Shown: positions 40,702 to 51,240 of the stretch, piece after piece | Layout: each line of letters opens with the position of its first letter | How positions within the stretch are numbered: the stretch's first letter is position 1 | Source of the DNA: Paludisphaera soli | GTDB taxonomy: Bacteria; Planctomycetota; Planctomycetia; Isosphaerales; Isosphaeraceae | Assembly (NCBI RefSeq): GCF_011064595.1 | Contig: NZ_JAALJI010000013.1 | Coordinates: 62,001 to 126,000 of the forward strand | Length of the DNA: 64,000 bases | Direction of reading: 5' to 3' | The notes under the pieces: generated by a model | Database searches by the model: none | What the model was told of the DNA's origin: nothing | What the model saw: the letters and a program-made list of their open reading frames with translations, nothing else | Made by a program: the position numbers and the translations under genes

Positions 40702-43700
40702 ATGATGCTCGAAAGCAAGCCGACGGCGGTCGCGGCGACGGCCGGGGCGCCGATCCCGATCGAGGGTGGGCCGGGACGCCTGAGGATTCGACGTCACGGC
40801 ATCGCCTGGTTCCTTCTCGCGGGGACGGCGATCGGCCTGGGGTGTTCGTCGTCCGGCGGCGTCCCGCCGGACGACGAGGCGATGGTGCGGGCCCGGCTCG
40901 CGGGGCGGACGCCCGAGGAGGCGGCCCGAGACTACGCCCCGCCGAAGGTCGACTACTTCCCCGACATGGACGTGGTCGGCCGTCCCGCCGAGGGGGCCAA
41001 GGAGTGGCCCGATCAGCTCCTGGACCTCGATCCGGAGTCGGGGAAGAAGCCCGAGGGAGAGTCCTGTGCGGGGATCGAGCGGCGCCCGGAACGCAAGGTT
41101 GGAACTCTCGAACTGACCACCTCGGAGGCGATCGGCCGGAATACCTGGATGGCCTGGTGCGCCGGCAACGAGGGCTTCTGGGACTGGCTGGCGAACAACA
41201 GCTTCGGCGGCAGCGACCTGCTGAAGATCCTGGACGGCCGCAACCGCTCGACCCTCTTTCGCGACGCGGGACTCATCAATGAGCCCGAGATGACCGACCC
41301 GGGCACGCCCCAGGCGACCGATTTCGGCGTCCGGCTCAGCGTCCCCTCGGACCCCCGCCGGCGCGCGGCGCGGGAGGCTTTCCTGAAGCGGGCTTTCGCG
41401 ACCGACCGTCCGGGAGGATACCCAAAACCGGGCTACGCGGCGAAAGCCTACGAGGAGGACAAGGCCGAGGGCTACGGCGACGGCTACAAGGAACTCCCGC
41501 CGGAGATCTACGGCCTCTCCAGCGGCGTCATCGGCCTGCGACTCTTCCCGAACCCCAACTTCGACGCGAAGGCCCGAGCCTACTGGGACCCCGAGAAGTT
41601 CTATAACGACCCGGACTATTACAGCAATCCGGAGCTGGTCCGCCCGTTCCGCGTGGGGATGAGCTGCGCCTTCTGCCACACCTCGTTCAGCCCCCTGAAC
41701 CCGCCGAAGGACATCGCCGACCCGAGCTGGGCGAACCTGTCGGGCAACACCGGAGCGCAATACCTGCGGATCCGCGGCGTGTTCGGCAACCTGCTGACCC
41801 CGGAGAGCTTCGTCTACCACCTGCTGGACAGCCAACCGCCGGGGACGATCGACACCTCGCTGCTCCCGACCGACAGCATCAACAACACGAACACGATGAA
41901 CTCGATCTTCGGGCTCAAGCAGCGCGTCGCTCTCTCGCTGCGGAACCCGAAGGAGCAGCTCGCGCCGACCTCCGCCTCGTTCCCCTCGCTTTGGGCCGAC
42001 TCGGAGATCGGCAAGTCGGAGACCTACAACGCCGTCGCGGATTACCTGAAGCATCCCACGCCCGCGGACCCGAACCGGGAGCGCGACCTGCCCGAGCTGG
42101 AGAAGTCGAACGACGACCCGCGACGCGTCCCGCGCATCCTGCTGGACGGCTCCGACTCGATCGGCGGCTACGGCGCGCTGGCGCGGGTCTATCTGAATAT
42201 CGGCTCGTACTGGGAGCAGTGGATCAGGATCAACCGCCTGATCGTGGGCTTCCAGCCGCAGGAGCCGTTCCGGATCGACGATTGCGAGGCCCATTCGGTC
42301 TACTGGCTCGCCACCCAGGCGCGGGTCGCGCCGATGCGCGACTACTTCCTGCGCATCACCCCGCCGATGCGACTCCTCGACGTGCTCGGCGACCGCGACC
42401 GAAACCGCGCCGCGCCGATCGACGAGGCGGCCCTCGGCGCCAAGGCCGAGCGGGACAAGCTCGACCTCTCGAAGCTCGTCGCCGAGGCGCGAGCCAAGCA
42501 CATCGACCCGAGCAAGCTGGGCCGGGGCCGGAAGGTCTTCGCGCGGAATTGCATCGTCTGCCATTCGAGCATCCAGCCCGAGGAGCGGCACGCCGAGATG
42601 GCGGAGTTCGCCGAGCGCGGCGAGTTCTGGGACCACGATCCCGGCCGCTGGCTGGCCGATCCAAAGTATCGGGAGTGGGCGGAGAAGGTCGTGGAGAAGC
42701 CGTCGTTCTGGCTCGACAACTTCCTCTCCACCGATTACCGGATCCCCGTCGACTACGTCGGCACCAACTCGGCGCGGGCGATGGCGACCAACGCCATGAC
42801 CGGGCGGATGTGGCAGGACTTCAGCTCGGAAGACTACCGGGCGCTCCCCTCGGTCGGGGCGATCTCGTACTTCAACCCCTATAAGGGGACGGCCGGGGAG
42901 CTGGATTTCTACACCCCCCGCCACCAGGCGCCGGCGGGCGCCCCGGACGGGGGCGGCGGGCCGGGCTTCTACCGGGTGCCGACCCTGATCTCGATCTGGG
43001 CCGGGGCGCCCCTCCTGCACAACAACAGCCTGGGCCTGTTCAACAACGACCCCTCCGTCGACGGCCGGCTGCTGGCGTTCGACGACGCGATCCGCAAGCT
43101 GCTCTGGCCCGAGAGGCGGCTGGAAAGCTCCAGCTACAACGAGGCGACGCCCCAGCGATTGAAGAAGGACCGGGGGCTCATCTGGCGGACGCCGGTCGAG
43201 TCGTATCTGTCCGTGCCCGCAAGGCACGTCCCGTATCTCGCGGTGACGAATCTGGACGTCTTGATGAAAACTCTCGACCGTCACCCCTGGCTGCGGAGCT
43301 GGAAGGCGTTGCTGATCCCGGCCGGGCTGGCCCTGATCGCGCTGGTCGCGCTCCTGAAGGTGAAGACGCTGAGGGGCCGGGTCCTGCTGGGCTACGTCCC
43401 GATGATCCTGGCGTTCGCGCTGGCGATCGTCTCGTCGTTCCTGCTGGGGCGGGTGGGCGAGGTCCGTATCGGCCCGATCCCGGCGGGCACGCCGGTCAGC
43501 CTGCTGGCGAACATCAACCCCGAGGCCGAGCCCAAGAAGCTGGCGAAGACGCTGGCGGAGGTCGGCAAGGCGCTCGGCGACCTCGAAGCCAGGGGCTTGG
43601 AGGGTGAGGCGGCCCAGGAGGAACTGCGGCGAGAGGTCGCCCCCGCCTTGCTCGAAGTGAGCAAGTGCCCCGATTTCGTGATGGACCGGGGGCACGACTT

Positions 43701-43767
43701 CCCCTGGTTCAAGACGATGTCCGACGACGACAAGGACGCCCTGATCGAGCTGCTGAAGACGTTCTGA
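40702..43767 (+). CDS. Large di-haem c-type cytochrome (RoxA/MauG-like superfamily candidate)
   Basis: A 1021-residue exported protein with an N-terminal lipoprotein-like signal (GIAWFLLAGTAIGLGCSSSG, candidate lipidated Cys48). Two haem-attachment motifs are present: CAFCH at about 322-326 and CIVCH at about 616-620. The region YRVPTLISIWAGAPLLHNNS near 755-775 resembles the distal part of large di-haem cytochromes such as RoxA-like oxygenases, where YxxxxLxxIWxxAPxLHN is typical. Two membrane helices follow (about 872-890 and 896-918), before a soluble C-terminal tail. It is probably periplasmic, anchored at both ends. The GMC-patatin fusion starts 58 bases downstream, so it may be that enzyme's electron acceptor or a partner oxygenase. 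Confidence 0.78.
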   Translation: MMLESKPTAVAATAGAPIPIEGGPGRLRIRRHGIAWFLLAGTAIGLGCSSSGGVPPDDEAMVRARLAGRTPEEAARDYAPPKVDYFPDMDVVGRPAEGAKEWPDQLLDLDPESGKKPEGESCAGIERRPERKVGTLELTTSEAIGRNTWMAWCAGNEGFWDWLANNSFGGSDLLKILDGRNRSTLFRDAGLINEPEMTDPGTPQATDFGVRLSVPSDPRRRAAREAFLKRAFATDRPGGYPKPGYAAKAYEEDKAEGYGDGYKELPPEIYGLSSGVIGLRLFPNPNFDAKARAYWDPEKFYNDPDYYSNPELVRPFRVGMSCAFCHTSFSPLNPPKDIADPSWANLSGNTGAQYLRIRGVFGNLLTPESFVYHLLDSQPPGTIDTSLLPTDSINNTNTMNSIFGLKQRVALSLRNPKEQLAPTSASFPSLWADSEIGKSETYNAVADYLKHPTPADPNRERDLPELEKSNDDPRRVPRILLDGSDSIGGYGALARVYLNIGSYWEQWIRINRLIVGFQPQEPFRIDDCEAHSVYWLATQARVAPMRDYFLRITPPMRLLDVLGDRDRNRAAPIDEAALGAKAERDKLDLSKLVAEARAKHIDPSKLGRGRKVFARNCIVCHSSIQPEERHAEMAEFAERGEFWDHDPGRWLADPKYREWAEKVVEKPSFWLDNFLSTDYRIPVDYVGTNSARAMATNAMTGRMWQDFSSEDYRALPSVGAISYFNPYKGTAGELDFYTPRHQAPAGAPDGGGGPGFYRVPTLISIWAGAPLLHNNSLGLFNNDPSVDGRLLAFDDAIRKLLWPERRLESSSYNEATPQRLKKDRGLIWRTPVESYLSVPARHVPYLAVTNLDVLMKTLDRHPWLRSWKALLIPAGLALIALVALLKVKTLRGRVLLGYVPMILAFALAIVSSFLLGRVGEVRIGPIPAGTPVSLLANINPEAEPKKLAKTLAEVGKALGDLEARGLEGEAAQEELRREVAPALLEVSKCPDFVMDRGHDFPWFKTMSDDDKDALIELLKTF

Positions 43768-43825
43768 GCGGCCGCCGCGACCGAGCGGCGTCCCGGCCCG
43801 AGAGGCGCGAACACCGAGGCGACAC

Positions 43826-46800
43826 ATGACGACGGCCGAGACGAACGTCCCGCGGCACGAGGGCTTCGACTACATCCTCGTCGGTTCCGGGGCCGGGGGC
43901 GGGCCCCTGGCGGCCCGGCTGGCCCTGGCGGGCTACCGCGTCCTCGTGCTGGAGGCGGGAGGGCACGGCGATCCCGGGAGTTCGCCCGAGGTCAGCCTCG
44001 TCCCCGGCCTGCACGCGGCGTCGACCGAGGACCCGGAGCTGAGCTGGCGGTTCTTCGTGAAGCATTACGACGATCCCCCCGCCGGCCCGGACCCGAAGTG
44101 GCACGAACCGGACGCGACGAAGGGCGAGGACGCGACCCACGCCGGCATCTTCTACCCGAGGGCCGCGGCGCTGGGGGGGTGCACCGTCCACAACGCCATG
44201 ATCACCATCGCCGGCCCGGACTCGGACTGGGACGAGATGGCGGTCTACCTGGACGACGACTCGTGGCGCTCGACCGCCATGCGGACCTACTTCCAGAAGC
44301 TGGAGCGCAACGAGTATCTCCCCAAGCCCACGCCGATCCCGACAGGGGCTTTCGGCCGGATCCGAGACGGCGTCCGATGGCTGTTCGGAAAGGAAGTAGA
44401 CCATACCGGGGGCCGGCACGGCTTCCACGGCTGGCTGCGCACCAGCGTCCTCGACCTGAAGCTCGGCCTCGGCGATCGTCAGCTCATCGGGATGATCAAG
44501 GCGGCGCTCAAGCAGGCCAAGGCCGCGGGGCTCGACCGAGCCTGGACCCTGGCCCGGACGATCCTCCTGGGCCGGGCGTCGGAGGCCCTGGACCCCAACC
44601 ACGCGATCACGCAGGCCAAGAGCCCGGAGGGCGTGGTCCTCATCCCGCTGGCCGTCTGCGGGGAGGGGACCTCGATCGAAGAGGACGACTCGGTGCCCAA
44701 CGTCCGGCGCGGCCGAAGGTCGGGCCCCCGCGAGCTGCTCCTGGAGGTCCGCCAGGCCCACCCAGACAGGCTCCACATCTGGACCGACTGCCTGGCGACC
44801 CGCGTGCTCTTTGATCGCTCGGCCTTGCGGCGAGCCGTGGGCGTGGAGTTCCGCCGGGGGGCGAAGCTCTACTGGGCCCACGTCACGCCGAGCGGCGAGG
44901 ATGGCGTCCTGGAACGGGCGTTCGTCAAAGCGACGGGCGAGGTCATCCTGTGCGGCGGCTCGTTCAACACGCCCCAGCTTCTGATGCTCTCGGGGATCGG
45001 CGAGTCGGTTCGGCTCGCGGAAGTCGCCCGGGCGGCCGGCGACGAGACGCTCTGCGCCCTCCGCGACGAGCACGGCCAGCTGATCCGCGACGCCAACGAG
45101 CAGCCCGATCGGGTCCACCTCCCCGGCGTGGGCCGGAATCTCCAGGACCGGTACGAGGTCTCGCTCATCAGCCAGATGAACGCCGACTTTCGGCTCCTCG
45201 CCGGCGCGGCCGTGAAGCCCGACCCGGCCGATCCGTCGGCCGATCCGAACCTCCAGGAATGGCGGAAGGAGGGTACCGGCCTGTACGCGTCCAACGGCGC
45301 CGTGATGGGCCTCTTCAAGCGGTCGTCGCCCAACTTGACGCAGCCCGACCTGTTCATCTTCGGCGCCCCCTTGCCGTTCAAGGGATACGAGGTCGGCTAC
45401 TCGAACGTCGGCCACATTCACGACATGTTCTCGTGGGTGATCCTCAAGGGGAAGACGAGGAACAACGGGGGCACGGTCTGCCTCCGCTCGACCGACCCCC
45501 GCGACACGCCCGAGATCAACTTCCACTACTTCAACGAAGCCGATCGCCCGGGCCGGGCGCTGAGCGACCCCGACCTGGACGCCCTCGTCCACGGCGTCCG
45601 GTTCGTGCGGGGGATCTCGCAGTTCGCGGGCCTTCACGTCAAGCGCGAGAGCCACCCCGGAGCGGCCGCGGTGCCGACCGATGATGACGCGCGGATCAAG
45701 GAATGGATCCTGCGCGAGGCGTGGGGCCACCACGCCTGCGGGACCTGCCGGATGGGCCCCGACGGCGACCCCTCCGCGGTGCTCGACTCGCGGTTCGGCG
45801 TCCGGGGCGTCGACGGGCTTCGCGTGGTCGACGCCTCGATCTTCCCCCAGATCCCCGGCTACTTCCTGGTCACGAACATCTACATGGCGAGCGAGAAGGC
45901 CGCCGACGTCCTGATCGAGGACGCCCAGCAAGGGGTCGCCGACTCGCCGGAATATCCCTCGGAGCTTCGCGATCGGGAAGCCGCCGCCCTGCGGACGAGG
46001 CGCGACCGGGTGAATGACGACGGCGGCAAGGCCGACATGCCGCTCGACCCGATCGACGGCGGGGTCTCCGCCTGGCCCGACGACGTGACCGGCCTGGCCC
46101 TCTCCGGCGGCGGGGTCCGCAGCGCGACGTTCAATCTGGGCGTGCTCCAGGCGCTGGCGCGGGCGAAGCGGCTGCGTCGGGTGGACTTCCTCTCGACCGT
46201 CTCCGGCGGCGGCTACATCGGCTCGTTCCTCGGGCGCTGCTTCGATCGGCTCCGCGAGGCCCCGGTCCTGGGGGTCGGAGGACGTTCGTTCCCGCCCGGC
46301 CCCAGCCACGTCGAGGGCGAGCTGATCGACCCGGGCTCGCACGCGATCGCCTGGCTGCGGCGGCAGAGCAATTACCTGGCGCCCGGCGGGTCGGGCGACG
46401 GCCGCGTCAACGCCGCCAACTACTTCCGGAACCTGCTCAGCGTCCATCTGGTCGTGGGGGTGATGTTCTTCGCTGTCTTCGGGATCATGGAGTTGTTGCG
46501 ATACGCGCTCTTCGTGCCCAGCCTCGCGCTGCTCAACCTGATCATGGCGGGGGGGGGCGGCACGCCCGTCGGCGACCTGATCCACGGCCTACTCGGCCCC
46601 TTCTACAGCCCCTGGCTCCTGGTGGCCGAGGGCCTCTTGCTGTTCCTGGTGATCCCGCTGGGGATCGGCTTCTGGCTGGTCTGCCAGCATCGTCAGGAGC
46701 GATTCCACGGGCTGATGCTGGCGATCCTGATCTTCGTGGCCTCGGGGCTCGTGGTGCTCGGCCTCTACTACGGACTGCGAATCGAGGCGCTGCTGGCGGC

Positions 46801-48595
46801 GGTCTCGGTGCTGCTGTCGTTCTTCCACGTCGAGATGGCCTGGCGACGGGGGCGGATCCGCGAGGCGGCCGTGGGGGCGGGCGACACGCGAACGCAGAGG
46901 CTGCGCACGAAGAACATCCTGACCTACGACCTGGGCTTCGCCCTGGTGCTCACGGCCGGCGCCCTCCTGCTGGCGGTCGTGGACTCGATCGGGTTCGCGC
47001 TCCAGCAGTACGTGGCCAGGAACGACCTGTACGTCGGGGCCTTCGCGAGCTTCTTCGTGACGATCGCCGGCCTGATCCCGGTGGGCCGGGCCCTCGCCGG
47101 GGCCTTCGTGCACAAGGGGGACGCCGGGACGGGCTCCGAATCCTCGTCGGCCCGCGACCTCCGCGCCCAGGTCGGTGCGGGGCTGCTGGCCGTCGTCCTC
47201 TTCGCCGTCCCGCTGATCCTCTACTCGTTCGCGGCCCACGCGGCGTATGACGGCGGAGCCGCCCCCTTGAGGGGGATGATCGCCACGGCCTGCGCGATCC
47301 TGTACTCGCTGGCGCTCGCGCATCCGTCGGCCCTCACGTTCGTGAACCGCTCGTCGTTCTCCGAGATGTACGCGGCGAGGCTGGCGAGGGCCTATCTCGG
47401 GGCCTCGAACCCCGAACGGCGGAGGCCCGGGTCGGCCGACGTCACCGAGGTGATCCCCGGCGACGACGTAGGCACGCTGAAGGACTATCGGCCCCACGAG
47501 ATGGGGGGGCCGATCCACCTCATCAACCTCACGGTCAACCAGACGATCGACTTCTCCTCCCTCCGGGGCAATCGCGACCGCAAGGGGGAGAGCCTGGCCG
47601 TGAGCCCGGTGGGGATGACCGTGGGGACGCGCTGGCACGCCGCCTGGGGCGACGACGCGGGCACGCCGTCCGACCGCGAGGCGAGGGTGCGGCTGGTCCC
47701 CCTGGGAGTCCCCCCCGGCTCGGACCACCCGGCGCTCGACGTCCTGGGCCGGCCGACGGGGAGGGTGGAGATGCTCTCGCTTCGGGAGTGGGTGGCCCTA
47801 TCCGGCGCGGCGCTGGGGCCGGGGCGCGGGCAGTCGACGAAGCTGGGCACGGCGCTCCTGTTCGGCCTGGCGAACATCCGCACGGGCCGCTGGTGGGACA
47901 GCGGCATCTCCCTGGCGGACCGACTGGGCTTCCCCGACATGAGCGCCCTGCGACGGTTCTCCTACATCGCGCCTCGGACCTTCCTGACCCACACGCTGTT
48001 GCTCTCGGAGTGGCTGGCGCTCTACCCGGGACCGTGGGGGAAGTACTGGCACGTCTCCGACGGCGGCTTCTTCGAGAACCTGGGCGGGTACGAGCTGATC
48101 CGCCGCCGCGTCCCCCGCATCATCGTCTGCGACGCGAGCGCCGACCCCGATTTCACGATGGAAGGCCTGGGCGACCTGATCCGCAAGGTCCGCATCGACT
48201 TCGACGCCCATGTCGAGCCGTTCACTGCCGCCGAACTCGACGAGCTTGCCGCTCGGAACGAGATCACGCCGGAGGTCCGAGGCCGGCTCGGGACGCTCGA
48301 CGAACTGCGGCCCGCCGCCGGATCGCCCTCGCGCAAGCACGCGGCGCTCTACCGGGTGCGCCACGGGATGGACGCCCCCGCGACCTCGCTGTTGCTCTAC
48401 GTGAAAGCCTCGATCACCGGGGACGAGAGCGTGGACGTCCTGCAGTATCGCTCGCTCCACGGCGACTTCCCGCACGAGAGCACCAGCGACCAGTTCTTCG
48501 ACGAGGCCCAATGGGAGAGCTATCGGAGACTCGGCGATCACGCCGTCTCCGGGCTGTTCGCCGATCCCGATTGGTTCTGGAGGGTGGACCCATGA
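43826..48595 (+). CDS. Fusion of a GMC oxidoreductase and a polytopic patatin-like phospholipase
   Basis: One uninterrupted 1589-residue frame. Residues 1-697 are a GMC flavoenzyme: FAD site DYILVGSGAGGGPLAARLAL, ALGGCTVHNAMITIAGP, CGGSFNTPQLLMLSGIG and the C-terminal GHHACGTCRMG, with a catalytic His candidate, and VVDASIFPQIPG. From about 757 there is a patatin lipase: oxyanion loop ALSGGGVRSATFNLG, nucleophile Ser793 in TVSGGGYIGS and Asp1412 in VSDGGFFENLGGYEL, completing the Ser-Asp dyad. About eight membrane helices lie between Ser793 and Asp1412; an even number puts both residues on one side. No signal peptide is present, so the enzymatic parts are probably cytosolic. GMC substrates are alcohols such as sterols; patatins cleave lipid acyl esters. 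Confidence 0.9.
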   Translation: MTTAETNVPRHEGFDYILVGSGAGGGPLAARLALAGYRVLVLEAGGHGDPGSSPEVSLVPGLHAASTEDPELSWRFFVKHYDDPPAGPDPKWHEPDATKGEDATHAGIFYPRAAALGGCTVHNAMITIAGPDSDWDEMAVYLDDDSWRSTAMRTYFQKLERNEYLPKPTPIPTGAFGRIRDGVRWLFGKEVDHTGGRHGFHGWLRTSVLDLKLGLGDRQLIGMIKAALKQAKAAGLDRAWTLARTILLGRASEALDPNHAITQAKSPEGVVLIPLAVCGEGTSIEEDDSVPNVRRGRRSGPRELLLEVRQAHPDRLHIWTDCLATRVLFDRSALRRAVGVEFRRGAKLYWAHVTPSGEDGVLERAFVKATGEVILCGGSFNTPQLLMLSGIGESVRLAEVARAAGDETLCALRDEHGQLIRDANEQPDRVHLPGVGRNLQDRYEVSLISQMNADFRLLAGAAVKPDPADPSADPNLQEWRKEGTGLYASNGAVMGLFKRSSPNLTQPDLFIFGAPLPFKGYEVGYSNVGHIHDMFSWVILKGKTRNNGGTVCLRSTDPRDTPEINFHYFNEADRPGRALSDPDLDALVHGVRFVRGISQFAGLHVKRESHPGAAAVPTDDDARIKEWILREAWGHHACGTCRMGPDGDPSAVLDSRFGVRGVDGLRVVDASIFPQIPGYFLVTNIYMASEKAADVLIEDAQQGVADSPEYPSELRDREAAALRTRRDRVNDDGGKADMPLDPIDGGVSAWPDDVTGLALSGGGVRSATFNLGVLQALARAKRLRRVDFLSTVSGGGYIGSFLGRCFDRLREAPVLGVGGRSFPPGPSHVEGELIDPGSHAIAWLRRQSNYLAPGGSGDGRVNAANYFRNLLSVHLVVGVMFFAVFGIMELLRYALFVPSLALLNLIMAGGGGTPVGDLIHGLLGPFYSPWLLVAEGLLLFLVIPLGIGFWLVCQHRQERFHGLMLAILIFVASGLVVLGLYYGLRIEALLAAVSVLLSFFHVEMAWRRGRIREAAVGAGDTRTQRLRTKNILTYDLGFALVLTAGALLLAVVDSIGFALQQYVARNDLYVGAFASFFVTIAGLIPVGRALAGAFVHKGDAGTGSESSSARDLRAQVGAGLLAVVLFAVPLILYSFAAHAAYDGGAAPLRGMIATACAILYSLALAHPSALTFVNRSSFSEMYAARLARAYLGASNPERRRPGSADVTEVIPGDDVGTLKDYRPHEMGGPIHLINLTVNQTIDFSSLRGNRDRKGESLAVSPVGMTVGTRWHAAWGDDAGTPSDREARVRLVPLGVPPGSDHPALDVLGRPTGRVEMLSLREWVALSGAALGPGRGQSTKLGTALLFGLANIRTGRWWDSGISLADRLGFPDMSALRRFSYIAPRTFLTHTLLLSEWLALYPGPWGKYWHVSDGGFFENLGGYELIRRRVPRIIVCDASADPDFTMEGLGDLIRKVRIDFDAHVEPFTAAELDELAARNEITPEVRGRLGTLDELRPAAGSPSRKHAALYRVRHGMDAPATSLLLYVKASITGDESVDVLQYRSLHGDFPHESTSDQFFDEAQWESYRRLGDHAVSGLFADPDWFWRVDP

Positions 48596-50070
48596 CCCCC
48601 CCGCTCACCGCATTCCCACGGCACCCTGTCGTCCCCGAGGTAGCCATGATCCCCGACGCGACTCGACGCCCATCCGGACGACGGCCCATCCTCGCGCTCG
48701 CACTCGCGCTCGCCGGGACGGTCGGCCTCGCTCCGACCGCGACGGCCTCCGATCACGCCGACCCGATCGACCCGTTCAACAAGGAGCGGCTCGAAGGAGG
48801 GATCACCGACCTTTTCGTCTTCCCCGTGCTGGCCGACGGCTCGCCGGCCTTCCCGTTCGAACGAACCGACGGCGTTTCCCTGGCGAGTCCCGATGTCAAG
48901 CCGCGACGGCCGCTGAGCGAGGACGAACGCTCGAAGATCAAGAACCTGATCGTCGTCCTGTGCGTCCGGCGGGCGTTGACCGAGTCGGGCACGCTCCGAT
49001 TGGAGCCTTACTCCTATCGCGTGCACATGGACACGCACACGACCGTCGACTTCGACGACACGCCCGGCGACGCGTCCGCCCCGGCCCCCGCGGGCGAGGG
49101 TTACATGTTCTCGGATACGAACCCGCAGGCGAAGGTGAAGCGGCCGACCGGCGCCGAGTCGCGCGTGCGCTACGGCGGGAGGATCCCCGTGCCGAGCACC
49201 ATCGAGGACGACGTGCTGATCGAGTTCAAGCTGAAGAACGACGCCTCGCTCCGCGAACTCGTCGTGGCGAGGGGCCTCGCGAGGTCCGGGGCCGAGGACG
49301 TCCGCATCGTCGAGGACCTCAAGGACCTGCGAGTCGATCCGGAACGGATCACCGCCTGGGCCGGGGTCCGCGACGACCCGTTCATCTTCCCCGCGTTCTT
49401 CCAGACCAACGTCGTCGCCATGGTGATGAGCATCCCGGTCTCCGCCTTTCAGGAAGGGACGAGGGACTGGTTGATCTGGGGGACCTCCCACCTGGGCTCG
49501 CGGCAGATCGATCACGTCGGCCGGTCGCTCCGCACCCAGAACCCGCGATTCGAGTTCCTGAACACGCTGCCTCCGCGTGAGCACGCCGAGGCCGTCCACG
49601 AGGAACACGAGCACCCCGGCCTGCTGAGGGATCTGGCGCTGCGATTCAACTTCCAATCAATGTTCGCTTATCGCCGCTGGGATCAGGTCCCCGACGTGAT
49701 GGTCTTCACGACGCGGTTCCCGGTCGGCTTCCCGAACGGGCGGCTGCTGACCGACGACGTGGCGGCGTTGCTGGCGCAACACGGCGACACCCTCTTGCTG
49801 GAGCTGTCGCACCACGTCGGCGGCTGGCCGCGAGCCACCTCGAACGACAAGCCGTTCCTGCCGACCTTCCCCTATCTCGCCGAGCCCTGGGAAGACCGTG
49901 AAGTCCCGGCGCCTCCGGGCCTGAACCCCTGGAACAAGGCCAAGCTCGTCGGGATCGTCGCCGGCCTGATCGCGTTTCTCGTCCTGGAGAACTGGCTCGT
50001 GGCGGTGCTCTACCACCGACGCAAGCTGCGGCGGCGGTACGTCCTCCGACGGCCCCCGCAGGAGGCCTGA
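48592..50070 (+). CDS. DUF4331-like exported protein with C-terminal membrane anchor
   Basis: A 492-residue protein from the ATG whose ATGA overlaps the TGA of the GMC-patatin gene, with GGAGGG just upstream; an ATG at 48646 (GAGG upstream) would give a cleaner signal peptide and is an alternative. After the signal, ATASDHADPIDPFNKERLEG and GITDLFVFPVL match the N-terminal region of DUF4331 (related to SHREAP-type proteins), and AWAGVRDDPFIFPAFFQTN matches the second half. A single C-terminal helix (LVGIVAGLIAFLVLENWLVAVLY) is followed by a strongly basic tail, so most of the protein sits in the periplasm. Function is unknown; the overlap makes it a likely partner of the fusion enzyme. Confidence 0.8.
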   Translation: MTPPLTAFPRHPVVPEVAMIPDATRRPSGRRPILALALALAGTVGLAPTATASDHADPIDPFNKERLEGGITDLFVFPVLADGSPAFPFERTDGVSLASPDVKPRRPLSEDERSKIKNLIVVLCVRRALTESGTLRLEPYSYRVHMDTHTTVDFDDTPGDASAPAPAGEGYMFSDTNPQAKVKRPTGAESRVRYGGRIPVPSTIEDDVLIEFKLKNDASLRELVVARGLARSGAEDVRIVEDLKDLRVDPERITAWAGVRDDPFIFPAFFQTNVVAMVMSIPVSAFQEGTRDWLIWGTSHLGSRQIDHVGRSLRTQNPRFEFLNTLPPREHAEAVHEEHEHPGLLRDLALRFNFQSMFAYRRWDQVPDVMVFTTRFPVGFPNGRLLTDDVAALLAQHGDTLLLELSHHVGGWPRATSNDKPFLPTFPYLAEPWEDREVPAPPGLNPWNKAKLVGIVAGLIAFLVLENWLVAVLYHRRKLRRRYVLRRPPQEA

Positions 50071-50184
50071 CCGCCGTCGGCGGCCGGCCCCGGCGCGTTG
50101 CGAGGGCCCCTGGGATCGGATACCCTCGGTCTCGATGGGACGATCCGCGACGCGCCAGCCGCGACTTCAGGGAGAATTTTACAT

Positions 50185-51240
50185 ATGAGCAACAATCAAA
50201 CCGCGTTCGCCGGGATGTTCCGGGCGTGGGCCGCGATCCTGGTCGGATCGGCCGCGCTGGGCGGTCCGGCGGCCGTACGGTCGGACGAGCCGGCGACCTT
50301 GGGGACGATCGAACGCCTCGATCCGGCCTTCGACCGCCTCGTCCCGCCCGAGGCCCGGGTGGAGCGGGTGGCCGAGGGCTTCAACTGGTCGGAGGGGACC
50401 ATCTGGGACCTCGCGGGCGATCGGCTCCTGTTCTCCGACGTGCCGGAGAACGTCGTCTTCCAGTGGACCAAGGCGGGGGGGACGAGCGTCTCCCTCAAGC
50501 CCAGCGGCTACACCGGGGCGACAGCTCGCGGCGGCGAGCCTGGGTCGAACGGGCTGACCTTCGACGAGCAGGGCCGGCTCGTGCTGTGCCAGCACGGGGA
50601 CCGCCGCATCGCGCGGCTGGAGGCCGACGGCAAGTTCGTCACGCTTGCCGACCGTTACGAGGGCAAGCGGCTGAACAGCCCGAACGACGGCGTGTACAAA
50701 TCCAACGGCGACTTCTATTTCACCGACCCGCCCTACGGCCTGCTCGGCGAGGGTCGCGACCAGGGCAAGGAACTGGCCTTCAACGGGGTGTATCGATTGA
50801 AGCCGGACGGGACCCTCACGCTGCTGACGCGGGAGCTGACGTTCCCCAACGGCCTGGCGTTCTCGCCCGATGAGAAGACCCTCTACGTGGCCGTCTCGGA
50901 CCCCAAGCATGCCGTCTGGATGGCCTACGATGTTGAGGAGGACGGCACGCTCGGGAAGGGGAGGATCTTCGCGGACGTGACGGCGTCGGTGCCGGGCCGC
51001 AAGGGCCTGCCTGACGGCCTGAAGGTCGACTTGGCCGGGAACGTCTTCGCGACCGGCCCGGGGGGCGTGCTGGTCTTCGCCCCGGACGGCAAGCACCTGG
51101 GGACGCTCGCCACGGGCGAGGCCTGCGGCAACTGCGCCTGGGGCGAGGACGGCACCGTCCTGTACATCGCCTCGGATATGTACCTCGGTCGCATCCAGAC
51201 CGCGACCAGGGGCGCGATGCCGGGCGTGGCCCGGCCCTGA
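50185..51240 (+). CDS. SMP-30/gluconolactonase-family exported protein
   Basis: A 351-residue beta-propeller lactonase candidate. A signal segment (about residues 10-30, MFRAWAAILVGSAALGGPAA) is followed by the SMP-30 core: EGFNWSEGTIWDLAGDRLLFSD with the metal-site Glu, NGLTFDEQGRLVLCQHGDRR, LNSPNDGVYKSNGDFYFTDP, FPNGLAFSPDEKTLYVAVSD and KGLPDGLKVDLAGNVFATGP. These carry the family's Asn and Asp metal ligands. It likely hydrolyses a sugar lactone or similar ester. The start at 50185 has GGGAG upstream. It lies 114 bases after the DUF4331-like gene, so it may or may not be in that operon; it converges on mtdB with a 25-base gap. Confidence 0.88.
   Translation: MSNNQTAFAGMFRAWAAILVGSAALGGPAAVRSDEPATLGTIERLDPAFDRLVPPEARVERVAEGFNWSEGTIWDLAGDRLLFSDVPENVVFQWTKAGGTSVSLKPSGYTGATARGGEPGSNGLTFDEQGRLVLCQHGDRRIARLEADGKFVTLADRYEGKRLNSPNDGVYKSNGDFYFTDPPYGLLGEGRDQGKELAFNGVYRLKPDGTLTLLTRELTFPNGLAFSPDEKTLYVAVSDPKHAVWMAYDVEEDGTLGKGRIFADVTASVPGRKGLPDGLKVDLAGNVFATGPGGVLVFAPDGKHLGTLATGEACGNCAWGEDGTVLYIASDMYLGRIQTATRGAMPGVARP

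Follow-up and report, generated by a model that had tools for sequence, protein, structure and literature searches.

A rare gene cluster of Paludisphaera soli combining a di-haem cytochrome, a GMC-patatin fusion and a DUF4331 protein: a candidate lipid-oxidation module

Introduction

We analysed a row of three genes, here called cytA, B and C, in a 64,000-nt stretch of Paludisphaera soli DNA (NZ_JAALJI010000013.1, 62,001-126,000; hereafter the window, whose numbering is used for all positions), and compared it with described systems that its parts resemble. In the available text of the sources, the periplasmic di-haem enzymes PA2077 and PA2078 of Pseudomonas aeruginosa (10S-dioxygenase and 7,10-diol synthase) act on fatty acids, oxygenating oleic acid; the likeness to cytA, drawn by description, covers periplasmic location, two CxxCH sites, a MauG-type element and kinship to RoxA (PMC4496055, PMC6377657). 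They differ from cytA in length (624-634 residues versus 1021) and in reading HNG where the window protein reads HNN, and the accessible parts of the two reports describe an operon of the two enzymes plus the regulator gene PA2076, naming no lipase or GMC protein (PMC4496055, PMC6377657). The rubber oxygenases RoxA and RoxB (RoxA structure 4B2N) are like cytA in the order of two haem sites, a MauG-type element and, by motif order, a candidate C-terminal axial histidine, and RoxA, according to the portion of the source available, binds O2 at its first haem (PMC6311187). However, cytA is far from the RoxA, RoxB and RoxC models in score, and it is predicted to be membrane-bound, whereas rubber oxygenases are given as extracellular in the excerpted source (PMC10837239).

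Protein B shares the flavin adenine dinucleotide (FAD) motif, both Pfam domains and the first catalytic histidine with GMC oxidoreductases (alcohol oxidase, choline oxidase, fatty acid photodecarboxylase); unlike them, it has phenylalanine at the second catalytic position and is fused to a membrane patatin. It has the patatin motifs in common with patatin-like phospholipases that carry a membrane insert, among which the fused clade is one branch. Protein C scores with DUF4331 (PF14224) by its C-terminal part only, and adds a membrane tail. Literature searches on the gene set and on DUF4331, with most subscription journals outside their coverage, turned up no publication on this combination. 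The individual parts belong to known kinds; on the evidence of these searches, their combination, the fusion and a fourth protein found with it in relatives are undescribed. We tentatively propose, as a reading that may well prove wrong, that the three genes form the core of a rare inner-membrane module of oxylipin-type lipid oxidation, probably moved between phyla, whose chemistry we infer.

Results

Layout and linkage of the cluster

The open reading frames of cytA, B and C all lie on the plus strand at the positions given by the initial annotation, and its description of three adjacent plus-strand genes, the first encoding a 1021-residue double-haem cytochrome, was confirmed by these frames and by two CxxCH sites. 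The features are as follows.

40702..43767, plus strand: cytA, di-haem RoxA-like cytochrome, 1021 residues, lipobox GLGC at residues 45-48
41665..41679, plus strand: first haem site CAFCH, residues 322-326
42550..42564, plus strand: second haem site CIVCH, residues 617-621
42994..43035, plus strand: MauG-type element IWAGAPLLHNNSLG, residues 765-778
43306..43437, plus strand: predicted membrane hairpin of cytA, residues 869-912 (hydropathy)
43666..43695, plus strand: C-terminal CPDFVMDRGH, from residue 989, candidate axial histidine of the second haem (RoxA H641-like)
43826..48595, plus strand: B, GMC-patatin fusion, 1589 residues
43826..45970, plus strand: GMC flavin oxidoreductase domain, FAD motif GSGAGGG at residues 20-26 (boundary approximate)
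45851..45871, plus strand: IPGYFLV, with phenylalanine at the second GMC catalytic position
45971..48592, plus strand: patatin domain split by a membrane region, with GGGVRSAT at residue 761, STVSGGGY at 790 and SDGGFFEN at 1411
46433..47344, plus strand: membrane region between the patatin halves, residues 870-1173, nine helices called, eight likelier (hydropathy, alignment)
48592..50070, plus strand: C, DUF4331 protein with likely signal peptide (by eye), SDHADP motif, C-terminal membrane helix and basic tail
50098..51240, plus strand: SMP-30/gluconolactonase-like gene (PF08450, 157.9 bits; start codon uncertain)

A gap of 58 bases separates cytA from B, and B and C overlap by 4 bases (ATGA), with a later in-frame ATG for C at 48646. 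The overlap had been taken to mean that both products are made in fixed ratio; the overlap itself is real, and the conclusion is weak, since a gap separates B from C in each of the three relatives examined (L002, L094, L155). A homologue of the SMP-30/gluconolactonase-like gene adjoins the cluster in all four fusion-bearing loci of the genus.

Chromosomal cytA loci numbered 21: 11 in 10 of 45 genomes of the window's family, 6 in 6 of 298 Sphingomonadaceae, 2 in 2 of 337 Verrucomicrobiota, plus L004 and L010 (genes in unannotated loci were called with a home-made composition score, which gives rough results). A GMC gene lay downstream of cytA on the same strand in 17 of the 21, with a gap of about half a kilobase in G028. 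The same arrangement was seen in 12 of the 16 loci found without a GMC query, the five set aside (the window, G000, together with G440, G441, L004 and L010) being the window itself or found with the fusion as query. A lipase stood in or near the cluster in 12 of 21 loci (7 of the 16). Among 392 sampled Planctomycetota, only the window's own genome matched, so the distribution is very patchy. The fragmentary G047 locus was left out of the 21; there (L099 4500-8800), fragments of cytA, GMC and patatin stand in the usual order with C intact, which reflects decay, rearrangement or faulty assembly.

Among 72,556 plasmids, 21, most of them close relatives, carried cytA (E up to 1e-10), and GMC adjoined it on the same strand in all 21; nine more had no cytA but did carry a similar GMC, at E up to 1e-40. 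The cytA-GMC pair is the most conserved one. A separate patatin of another type followed GMC on 17 of the 21 cytA plasmids (the Sinorhizobium fredii CCBAU 45436 copy is annotated in two pieces), and a fused patatin was present on two (L149, L152), with the same spacing seen in CP032685. Sinorhizobium B11 was the only one of the 21 with no patatin after GMC.

The earlier expectation that the three families neighbour each other in other genomes held: the order cytA, fusion, C recurs in the Verrucomicrobiota genome G964, found by the cytA search; cytA, fusion, C and the fourth protein are all together on Mesorhizobium pOM4; and the fused patatins form one clade. The linkage is strong, and cytA, the fusion and C belong together. 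The set is rare, yet it recurs in a second phylum and on a plasmid of rhizobia, which makes it a probable lipid-oxidising system not described before.

The GMC-patatin fusion

Protein B exceeded the cut-offs of both Pfam GMC_oxred_N and GMC_oxred_C. The catalytic pair of GMC enzymes is a histidine plus a histidine or asparagine. The first histidine is kept in B, and the second position, found by alignment with the asparagine of choline oxidase (which we take to be residue 510, with a catalytic role), is phenylalanine in 25 of the 26 GMC sequences of these loci, the window included; the 26th is a fragment. On these residues and domains, membership of the GMC superfamily is not in doubt, and ordinary alcohol oxidation, its usual chemistry, is in doubt because the second catalytic residue is phenylalanine.

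Patatin-like phospholipases carry the motifs GGGxR, GxSxG and DG[GA]. In this family GGGxR, SGG and DGG were invariant in 11 of 11 aligned members. The Pfam patatin search of window B returned no match at E up to 1, then up to 10; the Mesorhizobium fusion (L149) reached 26.6 bits with PF01734, just below the cut-off of 27.7, and a different type of patatin, present in L132, L147 and L150, exceeded it. A single open frame spans GMC and patatin in eight loci, which represent three phyla (the window, L002, L003, L094, L095, L149, L152 and L155; L003 meets a contig edge and has the GMC end only, and L002 and G004 are most likely one genome). The fusion is no frameshift artefact, the alternative that the initial annotation had named, and its reading of B as a GMC oxidoreductase fused to a membrane patatin is upheld by the single frame, the Pfam GMC domains and the invariant patatin motifs.

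In a FastTree tree of 88 patatins, the eight fused ones formed one fork (Shimodaira-Hasegawa-like support 99; FastTree joins long branches readily). They come from Planctomycetota, from the Verrucomicrobiota-drawn genome G964 and from rhizobial plasmids. Either the unit was transferred from phylum to phylum or it is ancient and was lost many times; transfer is probably the better account because the distribution is sparse. Patatins with a membrane insert occur in Proteobacteria, Acidobacteriota, Verrucomicrobiota and others. Among 80 loci retrieved by querying with the fusion, 5 had cytA in the stretch examined, and these 80 shared no informative neighbours apart from cytA, GMC and a RoxA-like gene. 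In L036 (2995-10724), a RoxA-like di-haem gene lies 3.2 kb upstream of an unfused patatin, with no cytA in the stretch.

The di-haem cytochrome

Both haem sites were kept in the cytA relatives read, except in the frame-broken G014 copy. The C-terminal GH was likewise kept at the matching end in the relatives read, its equivalence to RoxA H641 resting on motif order. The best NCBIfam profile was NF040606 (di-heme-cytochrome C peroxidase), with 41.9 bits and E 7.5e-11, below the cut-off of 150; by this score, cytA is a relative of NF040606 and not a member. Against the RoxC model cytA scored 15.1 bits (equivalog cut-off 900), and no match to the RoxA and RoxB models was listed at E up to 1. The RoxA-like element singled out in the initial annotation can be recognised in window cytA but scores weakly there (PF21419 16.3 bits, cut-off 26.7). 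The MauG motif of rubber oxygenases is P[YF][FLM]HNGSVP, and the window cytA reads APLLHNNSLG. A PDB search with the single sequence gave one chance-level match, and one with the cytA profile gave weak matches, nearly all at cytochrome haem motifs. Judged by motif and profile, cytA is a distant relative of the rubber oxygenase RoxA.

In a 26-row cytA tree, the window clade stood next to the clade of L155, L149 and L152 with support of 91/84, which is below full. Two further features were seen around cytA. A conserved protein of about 146 residues lies near it in planctomycete L128 (11454-11891) and in sphingomonads L135 (5861-6373) and L136 (14793-15221), and its L128 copy had no Pfam match. 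In L129, L130 and L131, the last being the G014 copy, in pieces, cytA paralogues are flanked by thiamine pyrophosphate (TPP) enzyme-like and aldehyde dehydrogenase-like genes.

The DUF4331 protein and a fourth protein

Protein C scored 32.2 bits with PF14224 (DUF4331; cut-off 27) by its C-terminal part only, the part with the GFPNGRxLxDDV end, and its SDHADP start presumably resembles that of other DUF4331 members. With the predicted C-terminal helix, this agrees with the first description of C as a DUF4331-like protein with a membrane tail. As a single query against the 72,556 plasmids (E up to 1e-5), C matched one record, Mesorhizobium pOM4, where it lies 2.2 kb from the fusion end on the other strand; in G964 it directly follows the fusion. 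Among the 45 family genomes, strong matches to the C profile were confined to G000, G002 and G004, which are its source rows or their kin, and in the other 42 the only matches were weak ones in G029 (1.2e-11) and G003 (1e-5). The fusion itself was searched in 37 of the 45 and is known in four (G000, G001, G002, G004). DUF4331 proteins were also seen near HupE/UreJ membrane proteins in L138, L097 and L149.

A fourth protein, about 360 residues long and matching nothing in Pfam, NCBIfam or the PDB, is encoded after C in G002 and L002 and after the fusion in L003. In G964 it is joined onto the C-terminus of C, and on pOM4, the only matching record among the 72,556 plasmids (E up to 0.01), it adjoins C. 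In the 337 Verrucomicrobiota, strong matches fell in the same two genomes as cytA, G964 and G440; two further matches at E ~1e-3 look like chance. G964 is a row of the query profile and G440 is an independent hit, so that hits independent of the query profiles are pOM4, G964 for C and G440 for the fourth protein. A catalase-like pattern suggested itself for this protein; hhalign against catalase-family proteins left it unsupported (probability 0.45%), and it is no more than a lead.

Exchange of lipase and haem-enzyme partners

The lipase partner varied between fused patatin, PF01734 patatin, LCAT-like lipase and separate patatin. G744 has cytA, GMC, a PF01734 patatin and a RoxA-like protein, and G003 has cytA, GMC, an LCAT-like lipase, DUF4331, a HupE/UreJ protein and patatin. 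Extra RoxA-like di-haem proteins occur in some of the same gene rows, as in the seven-gene row of Rhizobium johnstonii pRL11 (L147 3996-16348): flavin oxidoreductase, RoxA-like, small membrane protein, RoxA-like, cytA, GMC and patatin, the last three being RL_RS32250, RL_RS32245 and RL_RS32240 of strain 3841. An extra RoxA-like gene stands alongside cytA in L006, L010, L147, L148 and L156, among which the MauG-type histidine was read as leucine or valine for L006, L010 and L147 only. That such a gene compensates for loss of the histidine was considered and rejected: the rule fails in L133-L137, and L132 has the extra gene as well as the histidine.

In three closely related sphingomonads (L133, L134, L137), a catalase-family protein follows GMC, and the L136 copy is about 3 kb away. 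A profile of this family with five plasmid relatives reached solved catalases and coral allene oxide synthase; the L134 protein alone had no Pfam and no PDB match, and its assignment rests on the annotated plasmid relatives (about 30% identity) and the joint profile. On Calothrix pCAL6303.01 (L150 4633-12557), GMC and patatin overlap by 4 bases, and an animal-type haem peroxidase lies upstream with a transposase gene between. That lipase and haem enzyme are exchanged while GMC stays constant is the strongest hint of lipid oxidation. Lipid fits as the substrate class because lipase partners recur, and this part of the flow first proposed for the cluster stands; direct electron flow from GMC to the cytochrome is unsupported.

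Predicted topology

Topology was taken from simple hydropathy and is crude. The weak helix of the window fusion at residues 894-912 has no hydrophobic counterpart in the alignment of L005, L006 and L004, so eight helices are likelier, as in L006; an even number is also needed because the two patatin halves must meet. The inner loops of L006 hold 14 lysine and arginine residues versus 5 in the outer loops. With eight helices, GMC and both patatin halves look to face the cytoplasm; with all nine, the ends of the fusion would lie on opposite membrane sides. From their N-termini, cytA and C are predicted to be periplasmic.

Discussion

Oxylipin-type lipid oxidation fits these results best, with modest confidence, and defence against peroxides is a serious rival. 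In the proposed pathway, the patatin part at the cytoplasmic face would free acyl chains from membrane lipids, the free acids would cross the membrane, and periplasmic di-haem cytA would oxygenate them by analogy with RoxA and the P. aeruginosa 10S-dioxygenase and diol synthase. RoxA is not known to need a reductant partner. The GMC part would then act on the oxygenated product, for example from hydroxy to oxo, its electrons passing to the quinone pool rather than straight to cytA, and C would be a periplasmic, membrane-tethered accessory.

Several results weigh against this proposal. The MauG-type histidine is replaced by leucine or valine in sphingomonad and R. johnstonii cytA. A RoxA-like profile gave 24 bits in window cytA, which makes it only a distant RoxA relative, and the cytA profile aligned with two RoxA-like proteins over 21 columns, at the second haem site only. 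Structure predictions were of low confidence, with a mean predicted local distance difference test score of 38.6 for cytA (6-row alignment) and 38.3 for C (2-row alignment). Helix counts differed, at 9 in the window fusion, 7 in L005, 7 in L004 and 10 in L006 (two of them in the C-terminal domain), and lipase and cytochrome are predicted on opposite membrane sides. GMC was absent from 4 of the 21 chromosomal loci, namely G011 (patatin adjacent), G014 (broken frame), G031 and the second copy of G001, the last three being flanked by aldehyde dehydrogenase-like and TPP enzyme-like genes, as shown by Pfam for G001 only; no lipase was nearby in 9 of the 21. By the C profile search, G001 has the fusion without C. 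The fourth protein lies 140 kb from cytA in G440, and because it was not found in the window's genome, it is either not essential in this organism or replaced there.

The rival that survives best is defence against lipid hydroperoxides, in which cytA would be a di-haem lipid peroxidase, the patatin would clip damaged chains, GMC would clear or recycle the products and a catalase-like protein would help. We regard it as rather unlikely. It would account for NF040606, a di-heme-cytochrome C peroxidase profile, being the best for cytA, albeit below cut-off, for the catalase-family gene after GMC in the three closely related sphingomonads and for the MauG-type histidine kept in window cytA; however, the extra RoxA-like proteins and the haem peroxidase upstream of the Calothrix GMC-patatin pair point to oxygenation, and a distribution as patchy as one genome, the window's own, in 392 sampled Planctomycetota is not what one would expect of a general defence.

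It appears improbable that the cluster serves to break down an isoprenoid or polymer from the environment (rubber-like, carotenoid, terpene), starting with RoxA-like cleavage and continuing with product uptake. The extra di-haem proteins of L132 and L147 do match the RoxA, RoxB and RoxC profiles, with scores far short of the cut-offs, and cytA paralogues adjoin aldehyde dehydrogenase and TPP enzyme genes, but cytA itself reaches 15.1 bits against RoxC with no RoxA or RoxB match listed, and polyisoprene would need no membrane lipase.

Least probable of all is the flow of the initial annotation, in which the patatin hydrolyses an ester, the alcohol set free is oxidised by GMC and electrons pass directly to the cytochrome: the conserved cytA-GMC pair (17 of 21 loci, 21 of 21 plasmids) and a GMC-patatin fusion suggestive of a shared substrate speak for it, whereas direct transfer is unlikely because the crude topology puts GMC and cytA on opposite membrane sides, the second GMC catalytic residue is phenylalanine in every sequence but the fragment, and the Calothrix GMC-patatin plasmid is not among the 21 cytA records (a plasmid search; its chromosome was not searched).

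Oxylipin-type oxidation, our preferred reading, can be extended to a broader claim that we hold doubtful: the RoxA-like oxygenase, GMC-patatin, DUF4331 anchor and fourth protein would be a transferable cassette, an undescribed bacterial oxylipin machine of Planctomycetota, Verrucomicrobiota and rhizobia that mines the membrane of its own cell for acyl chains and converts them to oxidised lipids used in signalling or defence. We know of no dedicated route from membrane to oxidised lipid in such bacteria. If the proposal is true, it would provide one, give DUF4331 a testable genomic setting and place a GMC enzyme that lacks its usual second catalytic residue in one chain with a partner lipase. 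Since cytA-GMC-patatin versions occur on rhizobial plasmids, the function could be tested in tractable soil bacteria. As a separate observation, catalase-family genes lie beside peroxidase-family genes on Methylobacterium and Paracoccus plasmids (L167, L170), perhaps as another oxylipin pair.

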